Part shown: piece by piece, positions 10,013 through 34,474 of the stretch | How positions within the stretch are numbered: the stretch's first letter is position 1 | How the letters are laid out: each line of letters begins with the position of its first letter | NCBI GenBank assembly: GCA_947477885.1 | Contig: CANJUD010000006.1 | Span: 124,001-188,000, forward strand | Length of the DNA: 64,000 nt | Origin: Bacteroidota bacterium | GTDB lineage: Bacteria > Bacteroidota > Bacteroidia > UKL13-3 | Reading direction: 5' to 3' | The notes under the pieces: model-generated | Seen by the model: the letters and a program-made list of their open reading frames with translations, nothing else | What the model was told of the DNA's origin: nothing | Databases searched by the model: none | Translations under genes and position numbers: made by a program

Positions 10013-11926
10013 TTAATTCTTCACTACTTTCTTAATACAAACATTCCCTTTGCTATCGCTAAAGCGAATATAATAAATACCTGGAGTATAATTAGAGATA
10101 TTAATAGTGTTTCCTTCTAATTTTTGGTAAGTAATCAGTTTACCTTGGCCATCTAAAACTGTATAATATAAATTGGAATAATTCTGTGTATTCCCAACTT
10201 GTATATATTCCACTACCGGATTGGGGAATATATTTAATTCTAACATATTTTCAAATTTAACAGTTTGTTTAATCCCTAGATAAGGATTTGTAGGAAACGG
10301 TACTTCACTACCAAGATATGCCCGAATCATTGGTGTTCCGCCTAAATCTGTTTTATTGGTTTTATGCCACTTGTTCATTACATTATAATATAAATGTTGG
10401 TTGCCTTGGTCGGTTTTATAGTTTCTATCAAAACCAACATTTAGAACAAAATCCGAAGTTTGCGACCAACCGATAAAAAATTTTCCAGCAGGTAAAAATA
10501 CAGGCGTATCTAATATATAATTGGTGAATGTATTTTGACCCAATTGGTATTCTGGTCCATTGGGCATGTCAATAGTTTTATATAGGGTATCATATTGTGT
10601 TCCTTGTGTCACACTTTTCCATATATTTATTTTAAAAGGTTTGCCTTTTACACTGGTTGAACTTTGATTGTAGAAAAAACTAACTGCCCATAAAGTATCT
10701 GGCTGGTTCAAATTGAATTCGAGTGCTACTTTACCACCTCCATTCTCTATGCCGTATCCACATTCTGCAGTGCCATCATCGTATGCCAAATAATTTGCAA
10801 ATACAGTTTGTGTATTTACCGTGTCATTTTCAGCATGTTTATCGCCAGTGAGGTTATGTGTCCATAAGCGGTTTATAATAACGGTATCTGTATTTTTCGG
10901 GTAAAAAGTTTTAATGTCTTTCCATCCATTCGCAATATTTTTTTTAAGATTTTGGGCGAAACCAGGTTCCAAATCAGTTTTTAAATATAGTGACTTATAG
11001 TTTTTATCTCTATAATTTTCAGCCCGATTAAAGTATAAAGGAACCTTATTAAAACTTTTAATGGTGCATCTCGAACTATCCACAATTTCGTTAAAAAAAT
11101 TATCATATACTTGATCCCAAGGCATGGAATAATAATCGTTTAATAAATTATTAGGGGGCGTAACAAATGCCACATCTTCTTGATTTGAATCATTTACAAA
11201 TTGATGATAATCCAATAATACATAATCCAAATGCCAATGGTTTGAATTTCCTGTTTGCAAGGAATAGTTGATAAATCTAAATCTAAAACCTCCATGCAAA
11301 AAAACAGGGTCATCCAAATGTATAAAATAGTGATTGAAATTAACTGGCAAACCTTTGCCACCAATTTTCCATACTCTTTCCCAAATCCCATTCTTATCAT
11401 AAAACTCTAGCACCAAACTATCCTGTGGGTCTCTGGGGTTATATAAGGGATCTATATCGAGTCCTTGTGGTTGCATATAAAATGAAAGATATAATGAATC
11501 ATTTTTGGGAAATTGGTATTTTTTCAAATCAATCCCTTGCGACTCCAAAGTATCCGAGCTACCATAAGCTAAGCTAATACCAGTATAGGGCTGCCCTTGG
11601 TTATTTAGATTGTCGAAAGTAGCTACACCGTATGTCGGTGGATTGATGGCTGCATCATTATTAATAAATACATAATTATTAGTCCAGCGTTTTTGATTGG
11701 GATATATTTTTGAGGTAGTAAAATCGTCGAAGAAGGGGAGGGCGAGGGTGTCAGTTGCTGCACCACGTTCTTTTATTTGCTTGGGCCAAGCATTATTTGG
11801 ATGATTAAATAGATGTTGCTGTATCACCGCATTTCTTTCCAATTGCTTATATGTTTGTTGTTGTGCATTAACGGCAATTGCAATTAAACAATTTAATATA
11901 ATAATAGTTATTTTTTTCAAATTCAT
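10013..11926 (-). CDS. Secreted protein with T9SS type A sorting domain
   Basis: 637-residue exported protein of unknown function. A signal peptide (residues 1-21, ending VNA/QQ) is followed by a large beta-rich region (FFDDFTTSKIYPNQKRWTNN near residue 67 resembles the opening of lectin-like surface proteins), and the C-terminal ~80 residues are a type IX secretion sorting domain: LNIFPNPVVEYIQV, LDGQGKLITYQKLEG, TPGIYYIRFSDSKG, ending in CIKKVVKN. It should be exported by Sec, crossed by the T9SS, and attached to the surface or released after removal of the domain. Its start overlaps the end of the PASTA gene by 4 bp (ATGA), so the two are translated from one mRNA. Confidence 0.85.
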   Translation of the reverse strand: MNLKKITIIILNCLIAIAVNAQQQTYKQLERNAVIQQHLFNHPNNAWPKQIKERGAATDTLALPFFDDFTTSKIYPNQKRWTNNYVFINNDAAINPPTYGVATFDNLNNQGQPYTGISLAYGSSDTLESQGIDLKKYQFPKNDSLYLSFYMQPQGLDIDPLYNPRDPQDSLVLEFYDKNGIWERVWKIGGKGLPVNFNHYFIHLDDPVFLHGGFRFRFINYSLQTGNSNHWHLDYVLLDYHQFVNDSNQEDVAFVTPPNNLLNDYYSMPWDQVYDNFFNEIVDSSRCTIKSFNKVPLYFNRAENYRDKNYKSLYLKTDLEPGFAQNLKKNIANGWKDIKTFYPKNTDTVIINRLWTHNLTGDKHAENDTVNTQTVFANYLAYDDGTAECGYGIENGGGKVALEFNLNQPDTLWAVSFFYNQSSTSVKGKPFKINIWKSVTQGTQYDTLYKTIDMPNGPEYQLGQNTFTNYILDTPVFLPAGKFFIGWSQTSDFVLNVGFDRNYKTDQGNQHLYYNVMNKWHKTNKTDLGGTPMIRAYLGSEVPFPTNPYLGIKQTVKFENMLELNIFPNPVVEYIQVGNTQNYSNLYYTVLDGQGKLITYQKLEGNTINISNYTPGIYYIRFSDSKGNVCIKKVVKN

Positions 11927-21041: not shown

Positions 21042-21071
21042 TTGTCATTCCAACCCCCACTACGATTTTTG
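21042..21071 (+). promoter_or_regulatory. Probable promoter for the sigma factor cassette
   Basis: TTG at 21042-21044, a 19-bp spacer, and GATTTTTG at 21064-21071 (one mismatch to TAnnTTTG). It lies 30 bp before the sigma gene at 21101. The rest of the 223-bp gap (20878-21041) is AT-rich with no gene seen. Confidence 0.5.
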
Positions 21072-21100
21072 CATCTAACAATTAAAGTGACTCAGTTCGG

Positions 21101-21664
21101 ATGGGAAATTATAGCACAACGGTAGATTATGAGCAGCAGAAACACTTGTTGGAGACTTGTGCTAAAGGAGACCAACGGGCTCACAAAAAGTTCTATGACA
21201 TGTTTGCCCCAGTGATGTATGGTATATGCCTACGATATGCTGATAGCAATGAAGAAGCAAAAGATTGGTTACAGGAAGGATTCATTAAAGCATTTGCTAA
21301 GTTGAATATTTTTAGGAACGAGGGTTCATTAGAAGGTTGGCTCAAACGCATTTTTGTGAACCACGCTTTAGAGCAGGTTCGACATAAAAAAATCCTTTTT
21401 AAAACAGAGTCTCTTGAAAATGCAGCGCAGGCTCCCTATAATTTTAACTTCGATAGTAAGATGGACCAAAAGCAAATACTTGCACTCATTAGCACATTGC
21501 CTGCAGGTTGCCGTACCGTTTTCAATTTATTTATCATAGAAGGATACAGCCACCAAGAAATAGCAACGATGCTTGATGTAACCGAAGGAACCTCAAAATC
21601 ACAACTCGCTAGGGCCAGGCAACTCATGCAACAAAAACTAACAAATACAGAAATTGCACAATGA
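21101..21664 (+). CDS. ECF-type RNA polymerase sigma factor
   Basis: 187 residues. Region 2 is seen at about 25-95 (FYDMFAPVMYGICLRYADSNEEAKDWLQEGFIKAFAKL, then GSLEGWLKRIFVNHALEQVR), and region 4 at about 125-178 (LPAGCRTVFNLFIIEGYSHQEIATMLDVTEGTSKSQLARAR). It would direct RNA polymerase to a dedicated set of promoters. Its stop overlaps the start of the next gene by 4 bp (ATGA), and that gene encodes a membrane-anchored protein with an anti-sigma-like N-terminus, so the pair is probably translated together. In Porphyromonas an ECF factor (SigP) controls T9SS genes; a similar role here is inference. Confidence 0.92.
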   Translation: MGNYSTTVDYEQQKHLLETCAKGDQRAHKKFYDMFAPVMYGICLRYADSNEEAKDWLQEGFIKAFAKLNIFRNEGSLEGWLKRIFVNHALEQVRHKKILFKTESLENAAQAPYNFNFDSKMDQKQILALISTLPAGCRTVFNLFIIEGYSHQEIATMLDVTEGTSKSQLARARQLMQQKLTNTEIAQ

Positions 21665-22887
21665 ACAATTTTGAACAACATATAAAAGATCAGATGCAAA
21701 ATTTTGCACCTATGCCGCCGCCCGCAGCTTGGGCAGGTGTTTCGTCGGGTATGGGCACGAGTACTGCTGCCAAAGTTGGAGGTAAATTATTAATGAAATG
21801 GATAGCGGGTGTTTTAATAACAGGTGGTGTTGTATCTACTGCGGTTATATATACACAATCTGATTCAACACAGCAAAAAAATCAAGTACAGCATAAAGAA
21901 ACTATTATAACTAGTCCAGAAAAAGCAGCTCCATCGAATTCAAACGAAACTCTAGTTAATTCAAACGAAAACGGATCATCTGGTTCTCAAAATTTAAATA
22001 GCAATAGCAAACAAACTCAAATAAACCCCAACATTAGCGATGGTGCTAGTATTTCAGCTTCTTCTCCAAAAGGATACACCGAATATATATCGGCCCAAAA
22101 TTCTTTAGTGAACGCAGATTTGGCTGATATTGCTTCGCAAAAAAATAAAAATAGTTTAACTTTATTGCCTCCAGCAAAAATCAATTTATTAGAAAACTTA
22201 ATTTGCCCTGAGCGGGTGCTGAGTGTAAGGTTGGAAAATTGCCAAGGTTTCAGAATTAATTGGGGCGATGGAGAATCAGAACCTGTGAATGCCTCGGAAA
22301 TAAAACATAGTTACCACAAAGAAGGTAAATATATAATTGGTGTTAAAGGAACGAGTGAAATAGTAACCGTAAAAAAATCTACTTTTAATGTGGATGCAAG
22401 TTTGATTAATTCAACAACAGTATTATATAGAATCAGCAATCCTGATAATTTAGATTTGACAGTGCAATTTGATAACGGACCTGCAGAAACAGTCAATAAA
22501 AAGGAAATCAAACACACCATATCGGAAGGCGAAATCAATGCGAAGTTTTCAACAAATTCTGCATGTGCTGAGCCTATATTAAAGCCTATCAAATCAAATA
22601 TTGCACAACCTTTGGTTCCCAATGTGTTTACTCCCAATGGCGATGGCAGTAATGACAAGTACGAAATAGATTTTAAGCACATGGTCTTAAAGTTCTTCCA
22701 TATAGAAGTAATAGATATCAAAGGTCAAACCGTATTTGAAAGTTTCTCACCAACTGAAGGTTGGGATGGTACATACAAAAATGAAGTAATGCCCGAAGGA
22801 ACCTATACTATGCAGTTGATGTATCAGTTTGAACAGTTTAGGGAGCCAGAGAAAGCGATTAAAACCCAAATTTTGTTAAGAAAATAA
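21661..22887 (+). CDS. Membrane-anchored anti-sigma-like protein with gliding-type (T9SS type B) C-terminus
   Basis: 408 residues. Residues 1-40 are cytosolic and resemble the short anti-sigma-like head common after ECF genes in Bacteroidota (MNNFEQHIKDQMQNFAPMPPPAAW). One membrane helix lies at about 44-65 (LMKWIAGVLITGGVVSTAVIYT). A Ser/Asn/Gln linker (66-140) and two diverged beta domains, one with FRINWGDGESEPVN like PKD, lead to a C-terminal gliding-motility domain (PNVFTPNGDGSNDKYEID, GWDGTYKNEVMPEGTYTMQL). It has no cleavable signal peptide, so the type B domain would sit on an anchored protein in the periplasm rather than on a released one. It overlaps the sigma gene by 4 bp. Confidence 0.85.
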   Translation: MNNFEQHIKDQMQNFAPMPPPAAWAGVSSGMGTSTAAKVGGKLLMKWIAGVLITGGVVSTAVIYTQSDSTQQKNQVQHKETIITSPEKAAPSNSNETLVNSNENGSSGSQNLNSNSKQTQINPNISDGASISASSPKGYTEYISAQNSLVNADLADIASQKNKNSLTLLPPAKINLLENLICPERVLSVRLENCQGFRINWGDGESEPVNASEIKHSYHKEGKYIIGVKGTSEIVTVKKSTFNVDASLINSTTVLYRISNPDNLDLTVQFDNGPAETVNKKEIKHTISEGEINAKFSTNSACAEPILKPIKSNIAQPLVPNVFTPNGDGSNDKYEIDFKHMVLKFFHIEVIDIKGQTVFESFSPTEGWDGTYKNEVMPEGTYTMQLMYQFEQFREPEKAIKTQILLRK

Positions 22888-22929
22888 ATTATCACTATAA
22901 AATAAAAACCACTAATTTCGCCAACAATT

Positions 22930-25900
22930 ATGATTATGCGACATATAAAATCAAAACTAACAATGCTTTTTGCATTCATCTTACTCGGATGGGGTGCACA
23001 AGCTCAAATCACATGCAGCTTCTCGGTTGACAAGGTGAAGGTTTGTTTGGGTGACCAGCTTACTTTTACGCCAAGTCCGAGCAAAGCTCAGAATGCCAAC
23101 ATCAAAGGTTACCGCTGGTATTATGGTGATGGATCTACCAACACACAGGACAATCCGAATTTTCAGTACACTAAGCCCGGAATTTATTCGCCAAAGCTTG
23201 TTATCTATCTGAACAATGGCGACAGTTGTGTTACAGGTAGCACCATGCCAATCATTACAGTGTTCCCCAAACCTAGGCCTAGTTACAAATTAAGTAATGG
23301 GCATCTGAGGGATACACAATGTTATGAAGGGAATAACTTCTGTTTAACAGATTTATCATTGCCCGACTCAGTAACCAATGCGAAAATTATTCGCCGTGTG
23401 ATACTGTGGGACGACGGTTCTTATGATTCAACAGGTGCTGATTGGGTAAGCAATAAATATGTTTGCCACACCTATCAGGATTCTGTGGGTCGTTGGCGTT
23501 CACCCAAACTTATTATAACCGATACCAATGGTTGTATTGCCGAGTACAAGTTGGACTCCGACTTTTTGGTGCTGGATAAAATAGGGGCGAGGTTCTCCAC
23601 ACAATACACCGTTAAGTGCGATTCAACCCCAGTAGTCTTTAGCAATGGGTCAACAATAAATCCAAATAATATTGAGTTTTTTGAATGGGATTTTGGTGAT
23701 GGCACTACTTTCAAATCAAGCTCACCACCAACGGGTGCTGAGAAAACCCAGTATTGGAAAAAATTTGTACATACGTATTATAAGTCGGGGCCTTTTGCAG
23801 CTACTCTGCGAATCAAATCGAAGTACGGATGTATAGATCAATTCACCAATCCTTATGCAGGTGATAATATCAATTTGCAATTAGACCCAACTGTAAAAGA
23901 TGATACCATGTGTTTCGGTGGTCACTTAATGGAGTTTAATAGTACACCTTTATTTACTCCCATACCAGGTCAACAGCAGGTCTATTGGTTCTACCTGCAT
24001 CCACCTCCGAATAATGTGGACTCAGGTACTTGGCAGCCATCGCACGTGTATCCAAGTTGCGGTCCTAAAAAAGTAATTATGTTAGTATGGCAGCCACCTT
24101 GCCAAAAAATTGACAGTGTGGATAGTATGATGCTTTATGGACCTGGTGCCACTATAGAAAAACCACCCGGTGAAATTGCAGATACTGAAAGGCACCAATG
24201 CCGTGTAATCAATACCGTGCATTTCCCCAACCACTCTGAAATTTGCGACGCAATTCATATACAATTTTATTGGGACTTTGATGATAAAGGCAATGCCTTG
24301 TCGCTCGCTGATACTGCTATTTGTGCATGGGCAAATTTAAAAGATACGTTAACGTACCATTATGACGGGAATACGAAAAAGTATGATACTACTAGTACTT
24401 GTTTTGTGGGGATACCGATGCCGTTTCTGGTCAATGCATTTGTTTACGTCAATACGGTCACGCAGAAAAATGCGGTCGATCAAACTAAGACTGATACCTT
24501 TATTAATTACCGTATATATTACAGACACAAAAATTGTGATTCAACCATTGTTGGTAATGACACTATTTGGACAGCACAGAATACCAATTTTAGCTACGAT
24601 TGGAAACCTGAACACAAGTATGACACGACGCACAAAAAAGAACGTTGCCATACACCAAAATTTGTGATGAAAGGCGAATGGTATAAATATGATACAAACA
24701 TCAATATGGCTTATGCGGTAGAGTGTAATAGTATGGCTCAGGTTCCTTTTGCATTGATGAATCCTGATGCGAGTTATCTGAAAACAGAAGGTAAAAACTG
24801 TTATACAGTATCACCTCCTCCTTATAATATTACCTTTAAATGGGACAAATCCAAACCTGGTTGTACCCAGCAGTTTGTATCCATATGTTTCGACTCTAAT
24901 TGTTGTGCTTATCCGGCCGATCCTAATTGTTGGACGCCACAATCATCGTTCAATATACCACCTTGGAGCCCGCTACCACCATGGCCTACACAATATAAAA
25001 GATTCTATAGTCCTAAAGTGTGCGACTCAAACGGATGGGTAACCTTGGGATTTGCAATTCAAAACAGAAAAGGTGAGTACGACTCAACTATCCGCCGCTG
25101 GTGTTCAGATACTTTCTGGTTCCACCACCGCTTAAGATTCGTACCCAATAACGCATTGTTCTATACCAATCAAAATATCAGTGGTAATTATGACTGTGTT
25201 TGGTCGTATGTAATGATACACATGGTTGATACTACTCAAGATAGTATCGTTTCGATTGCTTGGAACTGGGGCGATGGAACAATCACTGCAGATTCAATTT
25301 CAAGAAGACCCTATCAGCGTATTAGATACGAATTTGACAAGTTGGGCGGAGTAACTAGTAAAGATATTACTGCAATACTGCCCGATACTATAGTCCCTAC
25401 GATGTATCATCAATACCCTAGAAGAGGTGTTTATTATTTATCAGTTACAATGACTAATACTGATAGCTGTTATAACTCAGTGAGGAAGAATGGTCGAATA
25501 CTGATTGGGAATATGGCTGAATTATATACCGATGATACTATTATATGTAATTCGCATAATGCAACGCAGTTCACACATTTCATTCGCTATTGGGATCCAC
25601 TAGGTCCTCCATTCTCTTACTTTGAGTGGAATGAATGGGATTATTGGGCTGATCCAACAATTTCTCCCAATCCTCCATTTACCAGACCCACACCTGCCGG
25701 GGGTTATGAAACTTTCCTTTGGTTATTTGGCGACCCTATCAATCCTTCATCAAAAGCAGATACAGCCTATCATACTTTCTCCGATACAGGAGTATATGAT
25801 GTGAGATTGTTAACTAAAGACTCATTAGGTTGTAGAGACACTATCCACCAAAATATATATGTAAATGATGTGACTGCTGATTTTAAAACATCGCGTGATA

Positions 25901-27384
25901 CATTATACTGCGGTCAATTAATCAACTTCCTCGATTTATCATTTACTTGGGGACCTTGCAAAAGCAGAGGAGCCTGCAAGGATGTTATTGCCGCTTGGTT
26001 CTGGGAATTTGGCGACAAAACCAATCCAAGTATTCTGCAAAATCCTACCCATCAATATAGTTCAAACGGACTCTTTACGGTCAAGCTGATAGTCAAGTCA
26101 ACTACAGGATGTTGGGATACAGTAATTAAACAAATAAGAGTGATAGGCCCATTGCCCAAGTGCAAAGTATTAACTGATACAATTGGTTGTGCCGCTTTTT
26201 CTGTAACTTTTGATAACTTATCAGATACTATTTCTAAAAACTTTATCTGGCGTTTCAATCAATTGCAACCTAACGGAACTTTCAAAACTATTTCGGAAGC
26301 TACACAAAGTGATACAAACTTCACACACGTATTTACAGAGCCTGGAGTTTATCATATAACTATTACTTCATCAGGAGCAATATACGATCCTACCACTGGA
26401 ACAAATAGAATATGTGAGGCCACATATCCCGATACCGTCAATGGATTCCAGAGACCCATAGTTGTTTATGTATTGAGAACACCTCAAGCAAGATTCTTTA
26501 ACCAACCCTTAGCTTGTGTGGGCGACAAAGTGCCATTCATCAACTTCAGCGATACAGAACTTGTATTCTTGAACTATGATTTTGGCGATGGTTTCACAGC
26601 TCACGATACGAGTATCAGATATAGAGATTCAACTAAAGTGCATAAAGTAAGTGAAGACACTACTTGGCATGTGTTTACCAAAGCAGGAACTTATAAAATC
26701 CTATTTACTCCAAAGTACCATATGTGTCCTGATGATACTTTTGGTACCATTACAATTGACAGTGTGAAAGCTAATTTTGGATGGGACCCAACAGTAGAAA
26801 TACCTAAGTTCCAATTCCTCGACAGTAGCTCAGGCAATGTAACCACATGGCGTTGGGATTTCGGCGACCCTAAACTAGGAAGTGCCAATAAATCCACTTT
26901 AAAAAATCCAGATGTAGATTATGGTAATGATACAGGAACTTTCCATGTATGCTTATATGTTACCAATGGACGATGTACGGATTCAATATGCAAGGATGTG
27001 GTAAACAACTTTGATGTGAATGTAATTATACCGAACAGTTTTACACCTGATGGTGATGGAATTAATGATGGATATTTCTGCGAAACCAAAGGACTATCTA
27101 CCAAAGATTCTACACCATACGAACTCTGGATTTATAACCGTTGGGGTGAGCGTGTATTCCATACAACCGATCCAAAGGAACAGTGGAATGGTAAGAACCA
27201 AAACGATGGTGCTACTTGCCCTGAAGGTACTTACTATTTCATTTTCAAATGGAAACTACGTGCTTGGAAAGAACCCAAACTTGCAGAGAACTACTTCGAA
27301 CAAACAATCATTGAGCCCCATAAAGCAAATGACAAGCCCTGGGGATCTGCAAAAGGTAGTATTACACTTATTAGAAAAAATTAA
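22930..27384 (+). CDS. Giant PKD-repeat surface protein with T9SS type B C-terminus
   Basis: 1484-residue exported surface protein. A signal peptide (about 1-25, ending GAQA/Q) is followed by many PKD-like beta domains, seen as repeated WxFGDG/DGxT motifs (RWYYGDGSTNTQDNP, FFEWDFGDGTTF, IAWNWGDGTITADS, AWFWEFGDKTNPSILQNP, TWRWDFGDP). The end is a gliding-motility C-terminal domain (VIIPNSFTPDGDGINDGYF, WIYNRWGERVFHTTDPKEQWNGKNQNDGATCPEGTYYF). Cysteine content is high for such proteins. It is likely a T9SS-exported adhesin or matrix protein, and the PorP/SprF gene 176 bp downstream fits the usual pairing. A strong terminator follows. ATG 22936 is an alternative start. Confidence 0.9.
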   Translation: MIMRHIKSKLTMLFAFILLGWGAQAQITCSFSVDKVKVCLGDQLTFTPSPSKAQNANIKGYRWYYGDGSTNTQDNPNFQYTKPGIYSPKLVIYLNNGDSCVTGSTMPIITVFPKPRPSYKLSNGHLRDTQCYEGNNFCLTDLSLPDSVTNAKIIRRVILWDDGSYDSTGADWVSNKYVCHTYQDSVGRWRSPKLIITDTNGCIAEYKLDSDFLVLDKIGARFSTQYTVKCDSTPVVFSNGSTINPNNIEFFEWDFGDGTTFKSSSPPTGAEKTQYWKKFVHTYYKSGPFAATLRIKSKYGCIDQFTNPYAGDNINLQLDPTVKDDTMCFGGHLMEFNSTPLFTPIPGQQQVYWFYLHPPPNNVDSGTWQPSHVYPSCGPKKVIMLVWQPPCQKIDSVDSMMLYGPGATIEKPPGEIADTERHQCRVINTVHFPNHSEICDAIHIQFYWDFDDKGNALSLADTAICAWANLKDTLTYHYDGNTKKYDTTSTCFVGIPMPFLVNAFVYVNTVTQKNAVDQTKTDTFINYRIYYRHKNCDSTIVGNDTIWTAQNTNFSYDWKPEHKYDTTHKKERCHTPKFVMKGEWYKYDTNINMAYAVECNSMAQVPFALMNPDASYLKTEGKNCYTVSPPPYNITFKWDKSKPGCTQQFVSICFDSNCCAYPADPNCWTPQSSFNIPPWSPLPPWPTQYKRFYSPKVCDSNGWVTLGFAIQNRKGEYDSTIRRWCSDTFWFHHRLRFVPNNALFYTNQNISGNYDCVWSYVMIHMVDTTQDSIVSIAWNWGDGTITADSISRRPYQRIRYEFDKLGGVTSKDITAILPDTIVPTMYHQYPRRGVYYLSVTMTNTDSCYNSVRKNGRILIGNMAELYTDDTIICNSHNATQFTHFIRYWDPLGPPFSYFEWNEWDYWADPTISPNPPFTRPTPAGGYETFLWLFGDPINPSSKADTAYHTFSDTGVYDVRLLTKDSLGCRDTIHQNIYVNDVTADFKTSRDTLYCGQLINFLDLSFTWGPCKSRGACKDVIAAWFWEFGDKTNPSILQNPTHQYSSNGLFTVKLIVKSTTGCWDTVIKQIRVIGPLPKCKVLTDTIGCAAFSVTFDNLSDTISKNFIWRFNQLQPNGTFKTISEATQSDTNFTHVFTEPGVYHITITSSGAIYDPTTGTNRICEATYPDTVNGFQRPIVVYVLRTPQARFFNQPLACVGDKVPFINFSDTELVFLNYDFGDGFTAHDTSIRYRDSTKVHKVSEDTTWHVFTKAGTYKILFTPKYHMCPDDTFGTITIDSVKANFGWDPTVEIPKFQFLDSSSGNVTTWRWDFGDPKLGSANKSTLKNPDVDYGNDTGTFHVCLYVTNGRCTDSICKDVVNNFDVNVIIPNSFTPDGDGINDGYFCETKGLSTKDSTPYELWIYNRWGERVFHTTDPKEQWNGKNQNDGATCPEGTYYFIFKWKLRAWKEPKLAENYFEQTIIEPHKANDKPWGSAKGSITLIRKN

Positions 27385-27400
27385 TATTATCAATAATATA

Positions 27401-27434
27401 AAAAGCCGCCCAACTAGATTGGGCGGCTTTTTTT
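27401..27434 (+). terminator. Strong rho-independent terminator
   Basis: AAAAGCCGCCCAA (27401-27413), 5-nt loop, TTGGGCGGCTTTT (27419-27431) and a run of T. It ends the sigma/PKD transcript 17 bp after the stop and separates it from the PorP gene. Confidence 0.93.
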
Positions 27435-27560
27435 GTGCTGTAATTTTATTATATTGTGATAGTACAATTACTATAATACCTACCCACAATATGTAATAGT
27501 CCTATTTTTGTTTTACATTTGTAGCAAATTTTATTGTTGCTTGGCTACAAAGAATTGAAT

Positions 27561-28541
27561 ATGAAATTAAGAAAAAAAATAAACACTACCCTGTTTTTTG
27601 CATTGATCATTTTAAGTGCTCATGCTCAAGATCCTGAATTGTCGCAGTATTATAATTCGCCTTTATATACCAATCCAGCATTTGCAGGCCTCAGTGGGGG
27701 TAATAGAGTAGCTTTGAATTACCGCAACCAATGGCAAGGCACTTTTAATAGTTATGCTGCAGCCTTCGATGCAAACTTGCCTAGGATAAATAGTGGATTG
27801 GGTGTATTGGTTTTTAGCGATCAAATAGGACAAGGCACCATACAAACCAATTCAGCTTTGCTTAGCTATGCTTTCCATACCAAAATAAACTACGATTGGA
27901 CTATGAGTTTTGGCTTACAAGCAGGAATTCAGCAGCGGCAAGTAGATTGGAATAAGTTGATATTTGCCGACGCACTTAATCCTATTAATGGCGTAATAGG
28001 TGCTACCAAAGAAAAAACCCCAGGCAATGCAACTGTGCTATATCCTGATTTTAATACCGGTGCAATTGCTTATTCAGATAATGCTTTTGTAGGACTAGCA
28101 GTTCACAATCTTAACAGACCCAACAACTCATTTAATGGATATAATGGTGATGGCTCAAGGTTGGGAACACGCATCACTTTGCATGGAGGAACTGTTTTAA
28201 AACCCAATCCCAAAATTAAGGACTTATTAATTTCGCCCAATATATTATTGATGTTTCAAAGTTCTTTTACGCAACTAAATTTGGGATTTTATATAAGCAA
28301 ACATAATTTTCTTACAGGACTTTGGTACAGGCAATCAACACACAACAGCGATGCACTTATTGCGATGATTGGATTTAAAAAGAATAATTTTAAGTTCTGC
28401 TATAGCTATGATTTTACAATAAGCAGCCAGCAATTTTATAATCCAGGCTCACATGAAGTAAGTTTGATATGGGTGTTTTTTAAAGGTGACCGCTATGGTC
28501 AAAAAGATTTTAGTAAAATTAGCTGTTACGGGTTTAGGTAG
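27561..28541 (+). CDS. PorP/SprF family T9SS outer-membrane protein
   Basis: About 326 residues. ATG 27561 is chosen rather than the upstream 27534 codon because it gives a clean signal peptide (MKLRKKINTTLFFALIILSAHAQ). The mature N-terminus DPELSQYYNSPLYTNPAFAGLSGGNRVALNYRNQW is diagnostic for the family. The rest is a beta-barrel, with GLGVLVFSDQIGQG and LNPKIKDLLISPNILLMFQ. Such proteins help export or anchor type B cargo on the surface and often lie next to their large cargo gene, as here. Sequences resembling -7 boxes (TATTTTTG 27503, TACATTTG 27514) precede it, and the terminator upstream indicates separate transcription. Confidence 0.92.
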   Translation: MKLRKKINTTLFFALIILSAHAQDPELSQYYNSPLYTNPAFAGLSGGNRVALNYRNQWQGTFNSYAAAFDANLPRINSGLGVLVFSDQIGQGTIQTNSALLSYAFHTKINYDWTMSFGLQAGIQQRQVDWNKLIFADALNPINGVIGATKEKTPGNATVLYPDFNTGAIAYSDNAFVGLAVHNLNRPNNSFNGYNGDGSRLGTRITLHGGTVLKPNPKIKDLLISPNILLMFQSSFTQLNLGFYISKHNFLTGLWYRQSTHNSDALIAMIGFKKNNFKFCYSYDFTISSQQFYNPGSHEVSLIWVFFKGDRYGQKDFSKISCYGFR

Positions 28542-33401: not shown

Positions 33402-33860
33402 TTATTTAAATATCCGCTTATCAAAAGGAAACTTACTCGTCGATATTATTTTAATTTTGGAAAAATCTGTATGATTGGGATTGATGAGAATATTATAATC
33501 ACCCTGCGTTACTGCAGAGGGAATTTGCATCACACAATATTTATTGGCCAATGCAAACTTATCGCCAATAGATTGCGCAGAGCCAGGATGCGGGAAGGTA
33601 TTCCACTCTTTCGGCAATGCAGACTCATTCAGTTTTTTAATAGCTATATTATCGGGAATATATATAGTATGCATCACATAATCGCTGGGGATTGTGGCCA
33701 AGGTGAAATGCACCGCAACCTCTGCCATGGCAAGCGAACGATTAGAAGCCAAATATATTAACTCAACACCAATCGAGTTCCACCTCGCACCTTTAATGGC
33801 AGCACCTTTCCCTGAAAGGGGTGTGGTAAATTTCGCACGAGATAATTTACAAGCCTCCAC
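33402..33860 (-). CDS. RES-domain toxin (MbcT type)
   Basis: 152-residue RES-domain protein, the toxin of Xre-RES systems; known members degrade NAD+. The open frame runs further upstream, but homologues begin near (Y)RLSRAKFxTPLSGKGA and here GTG 33860 gives MEACKLSRAKFTTPLSGKGAAIKGARWNSIG. The key residues arginine (ARWNSIG, about residue 26), tyrosine (LIYLASNRSLAMAEVAVHFTL, about 36) and the later serine/histidine stretch are visible. The start lies 2 bp after the antitoxin stop, so the two are coupled. Confidence 0.88.
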   Translation of the reverse strand: MEACKLSRAKFTTPLSGKGAAIKGARWNSIGVELIYLASNRSLAMAEVAVHFTLATIPSDYVMHTIYIPDNIAIKKLNESALPKEWNTFPHPGSAQSIGDKFALANKYCVMQIPSAVTQGDYNILINPNHTDFSKIKIISTSKFPFDKRIFK

Positions 33861-33862
33861 CT

Positions 33863-34363
33863 TTATGAGAGGATACCGTAATTGATTCGGGTGAGCTCGC
33901 ACAATATTAATTCTTTCCCGTAGGAATCTCTGAGCAATTCCATCGGTTTTATATTGCCTAAAGAAAAATTGGGTGTATCGAGCCAAAGCTTAAATTTATC
34001 CATATCGCCAAATACATCGAGCCCAACATTGGTAACTTCGGCAATCTCAATAATTTTTTCTGATTGGCTCGGCTTAAAGTGCTTTGATGATTGTTTATAT
34101 CGTTGCAATGATTTGGTGGAGATATCTAAAAAACTGGCCCAATCGCTTTCGCTGAAAGGAGCTTGGTGTTGTATCAAATCAAAAAAAGAATAAGGAATAC
34201 CTATTCTGATTGCTATAATAATAAGCATCTTATTCGAAAGAAAATCATCATAAGTAACGTTGCTTTTGCCTTGAACAAATTTATAATTGGTAGTTGAACT
34301 CTTGAATAGGGTTGAAACTTCCTTGTTCAATTTCTGCTCGATATTTAATTTAAAAGTAGCCAT
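33863..34363 (-). CDS. Xre/MbcA-type antitoxin with DUF2384 toxin-binding domain
   Basis: About 166 residues. An N-terminal helical region is followed by a Xre-like helix-turn-helix (IRIGIPYSFFDLIQHQAPFSESDWASFLDISTKSLQRYKQSS) and the C-terminal toxin-binding domain of the Xre-MbcA-ParS family (EKIIEIAEVTNVGLDVFGDMDKFKLWLDTPNFSLGNIKPMELL). ATG 34363 is chosen because GAAGGA lies 8-13 bp upstream; an ATG at 34417 in frame is less likely. It should bind and silence the RES toxin and repress the shared promoter. Confidence 0.88.
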   Translation of the reverse strand: MATFKLNIEQKLNKEVSTLFKSSTTNYKFVQGKSNVTYDDFLSNKMLIIIAIRIGIPYSFFDLIQHQAPFSESDWASFLDISTKSLQRYKQSSKHFKPSQSEKIIEIAEVTNVGLDVFGDMDKFKLWLDTPNFSLGNIKPMELLRDSYGKELILCELTRINYGILS

Positions 34364-34474
34364 AATATTTCCTTCGACATTTGTCCACAAATTTAAGACA
34401 TTTTTCCCAATCTCCAAAAATAAAAATATTTTTATATTTTTATTTAACCCCGATACAATCCCAAAAACTTCCCA

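Follow-up and report, generated by a model that had tools for sequence, protein, structure and literature searches.

An ECF sigma factor cassette of Bacteroidota with a candidate membrane anti-sigma factor bearing a type 9 secretion signal

FlgM, of the FlgM/FliA flagellar checkpoint, is an anti-sigma factor that governs the late genes of an export machine and itself bears the export signal of that machine, CnrY is a membrane-anchored anti-sigma factor with a head of about 45 residues, and the PorXY-SigP regulators act on the machinery of the type 9 secretion system (T9SS). CnrY embraces its ECF sigma factor, CnrH, with two helices (PMC4598750). In the PorA-PorXY-SigP pathway of Porphyromonas gingivalis, a protein with a C-terminal sorting domain (CTD) influences a T9SS-tied ECF sigma factor (PMC7712824). 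In Flavobacterium johnsoniae, there are SprB/SprF and other pairs of type B CTD protein and shuttle, in which porP/sprF comes after the gene for a giant type B protein (PMC12618676), and in F. psychrophilum an ECF/anti-sigma pair (THC0290_1774/1773) is found among the T9SS-linked ECF promoters designated SM6 (PMC9723704). As class I anti-sigma factors adjoin only 6% of the ECF sigma factors of Bacteroidetes (PMC7406223), another class of anti-sigma factor is to be expected there.

The locus described here resembles each of these systems in part. As in FlgM, an export signal is proposed to reside on an anti-sigma factor; however, FlgM is a soluble protein whose entire chain passes out through the flagellar type 3 system, whereas our protein is membrane-anchored and bears a type 9 signal. 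Its head is predicted to be cytosolic and to have two helices, as does that of CnrY (PMC4598750), but no sequence match was found. The outer part is a T9SS signal here, and not a partner for a metal sensor. PorA differs in being a separate surface protein that acts via a two-component system; in addition, SigP drives machinery genes and porA is confined to Porphyromonas (PMC7712824). The order of a giant type B gene and porP/sprF is the same as for SprB/SprF, but no sigma or anti-sigma gene is described with those pairs in the accessible part of that report (PMC12618676), and the SM6 promoters differ in having a CGT -10 box and targets that include the T9SS components GldN and PorU (PMC9723704). 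Among the open-access papers searched, one, the PorA paper (PMC7712824), joined anti-sigma factor, T9SS, CTD and sigma factor, and no earlier description of an anti-sigma switch bearing a T9SS signal was found among them.

The window, i.e., the whole stretch of 64,000 nucleotides that was analysed, carries the cassette and its neighbour as follows:

21048 to 21078, plus strand: ECF-type promoter, TTCCAACC-N16-CATCTAA, 5' of the sigma gene and fitting the class-wide motif
21101 to 21664, plus strand: ECF sigma factor, 187 aa (Pfam Sigma70_r2 and Sigma70_r4_2; NCBIfam sigma70-ECF)
21661 to 22887, plus strand: candidate membrane anti-sigma factor with a C-terminal T9SS signal, 408 aa (hereafter the sensor)
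21661 to 21795, plus strand: sensor residues 1-45, an anti-sigma-like and predicted cytosolic head with two short helices (AF2)
21796 to 21858, plus strand: sensor residues 46-66, its only hydrophobic (membrane) segment (hydropathy)
22615 to 22833, plus strand: T9SS type B sorting domain of the candidate anti-sigma factor, residues 319-391 (CHU_C, TIGR04131)
22930 to 27384, plus strand: PKD protein of 1484 aa, a giant T9SS type B cargo with an N-terminal signal sequence (six PKD_4 stretches, CHU_C)
27400 to 27438, plus strand: intrinsic terminator at the end of the cassette (hairpin of 14 bp with a T-run; -23.7 kcal/mol, z -6.0)
27561 to 28541, plus strand: PorP/SprF-like outer-membrane protein (TIGR03519, PF11751)

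The original prediction of a 4-bp overlap between the ECF sigma gene and the sensor gene was correct, the TGA of the former sharing ATGA with the ATG of the latter. The sigma factor consists of regions 2 and 4 only, with PF04542 and PF08281 above cut-off in Pfam and 83.1 bits against a cut-off of 42.9 for sigma70-ECF in NCBIfam. Pfam, NCBIfam and the hairpin likewise agree with the proposed succession of a 1484-residue PKD protein, a terminator and a PorP/SprF protein. The last of these exceeded its cut-offs widely (TIGR03519, 230 bits vs 90.55; PF11751, 202.4 vs 22.3 bits); it more likely starts at the ATG at 27561 than at the TTG at 27534, and it is likely a shuttle or anchor for the PKD cargo, made from a separate transcript. 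No match was obtained in an Rfam search of the window. Elsewhere in the window, a RES toxin/Xre antitoxin pair lies at 33402-34417, and the 637-aa protein encoded at 10013-11926 ends in a type A sorting tail for the T9SS.

Our preferred explanation, to which we give about an even chance, is that the cassette works as a sigma/anti-sigma switch for T9SS cargo that also regulates itself, and in which engagement of the signal by the T9SS frees the sigma factor. The head of the second protein would hold the ECF sigma factor at the inner membrane, and the hydrophobic segment together with a long low-complexity linker would place the type B signal in the periplasm, within reach of the secretion machine or of a PorP/SprF-type shuttle, either of which may engage the tethered signal like cargo. 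When T9SS capacity is free, the signal would be captured and pulled, and the anti-sigma factor would be cleaved or distorted; the freed sigma factor would then drive transcription of the operon that encodes it and, in certain lineages, of further cargo genes. When the machine is full of real cargo, the signal would remain uncaptured and cargo synthesis would halt. The gene order, the architecture, the intact signal, the conserved promoter and the cargo-rich regulon are observed; sigma binding by the head, T9SS engagement, proteolysis and the direction of the response are what we infer here.

The family was searched with the second protein as query and then with a 6-row profile, and five and then twenty further loci were read. 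Each of the 25 other family loci read has a sigma gene followed by a type B protein with one membrane segment, and the next gene on the same strand always encodes more than 900 residues, with a type B domain recognised in 24; in the 25th, from the same-genus genome G033, a contig boundary interrupts the giant gene, whose end lies beside PorP on a different contig. The only named relative is a metagenome-assembled 'Flavobacteriaceae bacterium' contig. Among the loci read, PorP stood directly behind the cargo only in the genus of the window and at one distant locus. Thus, of the four genes that were expected to occur together in relatives, the sigma factor, the sensor and the giant cargo do so and PorP does not; PorP as a core member was rejected, and it is best described as a genus-level neighbour behind the terminator. 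The broader claim of a self-regulated unit is partly supported: cassette conservation, the ECF promoter and the cargo-rich regulon favour a sigma/anti-sigma pair tied to T9SS cargo, in which the head would bind the sigma factor and the outer part would sense the signal. Behind several cargos, 317-aa proteins are encoded that look like MetF from their alignment consensus.

The sensor has the make-up first proposed for it, as AF2, hydropathy and curated cut-offs support an anti-sigma-like head, one membrane segment and a type B C-terminus. Its head is modelled with helices at residues 2-13 and 21-30 (block pLDDT 79-86), and P20 is invariant and K9 and W24 nearly invariant in 24 homologues. Two helices are predicted rather than the four-helix domain of class I (ASDI/ZAS), the zinc motif HxxxCxxC occurs in 0/71 sensor homologues, and a sequence search of the head against solved anti-sigma factors (PDB) gave no match; Foldseek with the sensor model returned generic beta-sandwich matches only, whose low TM-scores made them uninformative. 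Exactly one hydrophobic segment is present in 70 of the 71 homologues. In the candidate anti-sigma factor, this sole segment is internal, behind the 45-residue head, rather than an N-terminal cleavable Sec signal peptide, and the net charge around it in the homologues averages +1.6 before and -0.8 after, so hydropathy and charge predict an N-in/C-out protein. AF2 confidence is low for the segment, which counts against the proposed switch.

The type B domain of the window sensor scored 51.9 bits for CHU_C (cut-off 27) and 44.3 for TIGR04131 (cut-off 35), and the residue blocks from 311 on have pLDDT values of 76-98. An intact signal, judged by matches to whole signal models, was found at E<=0.001 in 45/46 sensors with TIGR04131 and in 46/46 with CHU_C, the window included. 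All five type B motifs tested in SprB were required for secretion (PMC12618676). The signal lies at the extreme C-terminus, with a median of 1 residue after it, and is separated from the membrane segment by a stretch of 108-276 residues; in most genera of the family the sensor is shorter (approximately 290-330 residues) and comprises only head, membrane segment, linker and signal. An alternative hypothesis is that the T9SS threads the outer part of the anti-sigma factor to the cell surface, with the head remaining cytosolic, and that the protein senses ligands or contact there and induces adhesins. The adhesin-like PKD giant as cargo, the PKD domain in 23 of the 46 sensors and a linker long enough to cross the periplasm are consistent with such a trans-envelope sensor. 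However, half of the sensors have no recognised domain besides the signal, and the translocon should become jammed by a substrate that stays tethered; we consider this hypothesis unlikely.

The original prediction also regarded a type B domain on an anchored protein as unusual. This does not hold as worded, since PorP-like proteins usually retain type B proteins on the surface of the outer membrane (PMC9143113); it is an uncleaved inner-membrane anchor that would be unusual. In the tree of signals, those of the anti-sigma factors group in a clade apart from the cargo signals (5 label changes, against 31.4 when shuffled), so repurposing or loss of T9SS engagement is possible. The type B domain could be a beta-sandwich ligand domain of the periplasm that has been repurposed and has ceased to engage the T9SS, with an unrelated envelope signal driving the switch, and the uncleaved anchor, which would prevent normal secretion, points the same way. 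Against this, the signal remains recognisable at the very C-terminal end of nearly all sensors, and T9SS cargo is over-represented in the regulon; we regard such repurposing as rather improbable. Cognate mimicry, in which the anti-sigma signal would have been copied from its own cargo, was rejected, as the two sets fall into separate clades and the anti-sigma signals were no closer to the signal of the cognate cargo (identity 0.32 vs 0.30).

The promoter motif [GC]CAAC[CT]-N16-C[AG]TC[TA], in short form GCAACC-N16-CATCT, was found 5' of 47/69 sigma genes in signal-bearing cassettes, as compared with 5/551 other ORFs and 74/5000 random segments, and the spacing is 16 in 46 of the 47 motif-bearing upstream regions. 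A looser form of the motif precedes 58/69 sigma genes, and a related site lies close to the sigma start in 5/17 signal-less cassettes. In the genus of the window, the promoter is kept in three species and the DNA further upstream is not. The 24-nt leader from promoter to sigma start (21077-21100) is nearly identical in the three species, with one extra base in G033, and keeps AAAGTGA, in which the GTG looks like the sigma start of other family genera. The cassette promoter is the sole exact match in the window genome (3.1 Mb); sites with 2 mismatches were equal in number to the reversed control, and the looser pattern gave seven other matches, six inside opposite-strand ORFs and one overlapping the start of a same-strand ORF. 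This motif search thus revealed no further sigma targets above background in the window genome, which counts against the free-capacity switch, and the window cassette is probably a one-target autoregulatory unit.

Across 16 class genomes, the motif occurred 50 times against 4 for the reversed pattern. Sixty non-cassette sites were read (18 genomes), of which 15 were dropped as lying inside genes or without a downstream ORF of 100 aa, leaving a regulon set of 45 sites in 17 genomes. A type A or B CTD protein lies behind 27/45 sites vs 29/450 control ORFs (odds ratio 21.8, p = 1.6e-17), the controls being drawn from other regions and unmatched by genome and the sites of related genomes being not fully independent. 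As the in-house type A profile was built from 13 of the same regulon proteins, NCBIfam served as an independent check, with 16 type A and 13 type B matches. None of the genes behind the 45 sites was recognised as T9SS machinery, which argues for demand matching over machine repair. The anatomy, promoter and regulon of the cassette are well supported. Sites were observed between the anti-sigma and cargo genes (G137) and, in three genomes of genus g2 of the window family, before a secreted protein of 227-228 aa whose tail resembles a type A CTD (L286:401-1084, L288:8237-8917 and L289:2062-2745); at 922302-927363 of G062 contig 1, four identical motif copies, three of them approximately 846 bp apart, suggest a repeat array. 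In family f15, non-secreted topA (L201, L262) and ClpC-like (L267) genes lie behind the motif, possibly regulated or there by chance.

With cargo as the targets and no machinery recognised, a homeostatic circuit should turn on at free capacity, which would favour capture of the tethered signal as the activating step, resembling FlgM export, over a jam alarm. A secretion-stress response similar to those of sigma-E/RseA or SigP, in which a blocked T9SS or a build-up of cargo activates the sigma factor, has precedent in the ECF control of T9SS machinery by SigP (PMC4800418) and at the SM6 promoters of F. psychrophilum (PMC9723704), but the regulon is made up of cargo rather than machinery or folding factors, with only the two topA genes and one ClpC-like gene as exceptions, and extra cargo would aggravate a blockage; we consider such a response quite unlikely.

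A profile of the head and membrane segment alone gave matches in 147/296 class genomes at E <= 0.001, and 60 of the stronger regions, three of them from the family or genome of the window, were read. These contain 62 head genes, 45 with and 17 without a type B domain. A sigma gene lies directly upstream of 43/45 type B head genes and 17/17 signal-less ones (60/62 overall), and together with the 25/25 family loci, the 43/45 indicate that the pairing of a sigma factor with an anchored type B protein is not due to chance. That the second protein is instead a membrane-tethered T9SS accessory or adhesin co-transcribed with the sigma gene, as the failure to find a solved anti-sigma factor by sequence might suggest, is very improbable, since the head stays fixed to the ECF sigma gene while the outer part varies between signal and barrel. 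The next gene encodes a type B protein for 23/45 signal-bearing heads vs 0/17 signal-less heads; approximately half of the class-level loci thus lack adjacent cargo, which also counts against the preferred explanation. In a phylum sample, in which the listed genomes all belong to the same class, 4 genomes had matches at 1e-7, and well-cultured lineages may therefore seldom carry the cassette. SprA is present in 288/296 class genomes, and a contrast of T9SS-bearing with T9SS-less genomes is thus without power.

The 17 signal-less heads are homologous to the signal-bearing ones (hhalign probability 98). Many of these 17 proteins have an outer-membrane barrel as their terminal part (OMP_b-brl_2 in 10, OMP_b-brl in 7); the link of the head to the T9SS is thus not exclusive, a further point against the preferred explanation. 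Two more ECF sigma/head pairs were observed in the window genome (L129:12592-14010 on G000 contig 3 and L134:1998-3536 on G000 contig 4); their outer parts look like an outer-membrane barrel, which Pfam matched weakly in L129, and two tandem copies of the head motif are present. These pairs possibly represent a parallel class of envelope-sensing anti-sigma factors. Extending the preferred explanation, with somewhat less than even confidence, we propose that an anti-sigma factor bearing a T9SS signal reports free secretion capacity, as a membrane-tethered, FlgM-like switch for cargo, and that the barrel-ended parallel class would report on the barrel-insertion machine.

For the adjustment of T9SS cargo supply to secretion capacity in Bacteroidota, where the known regulators act on the machinery, the cassette offers a sigma factor, a candidate cargo-tagged sensor, a short promoter and a list of targets. 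It could also help to explain the scarcity of recognised class I anti-sigma factors near the ECF sigma factors of Bacteroidetes (PMC7406223). Taken together, our analyses suggest that bacteria carrying this switch tie the synthesis of secreted proteins to their ability to secrete them.
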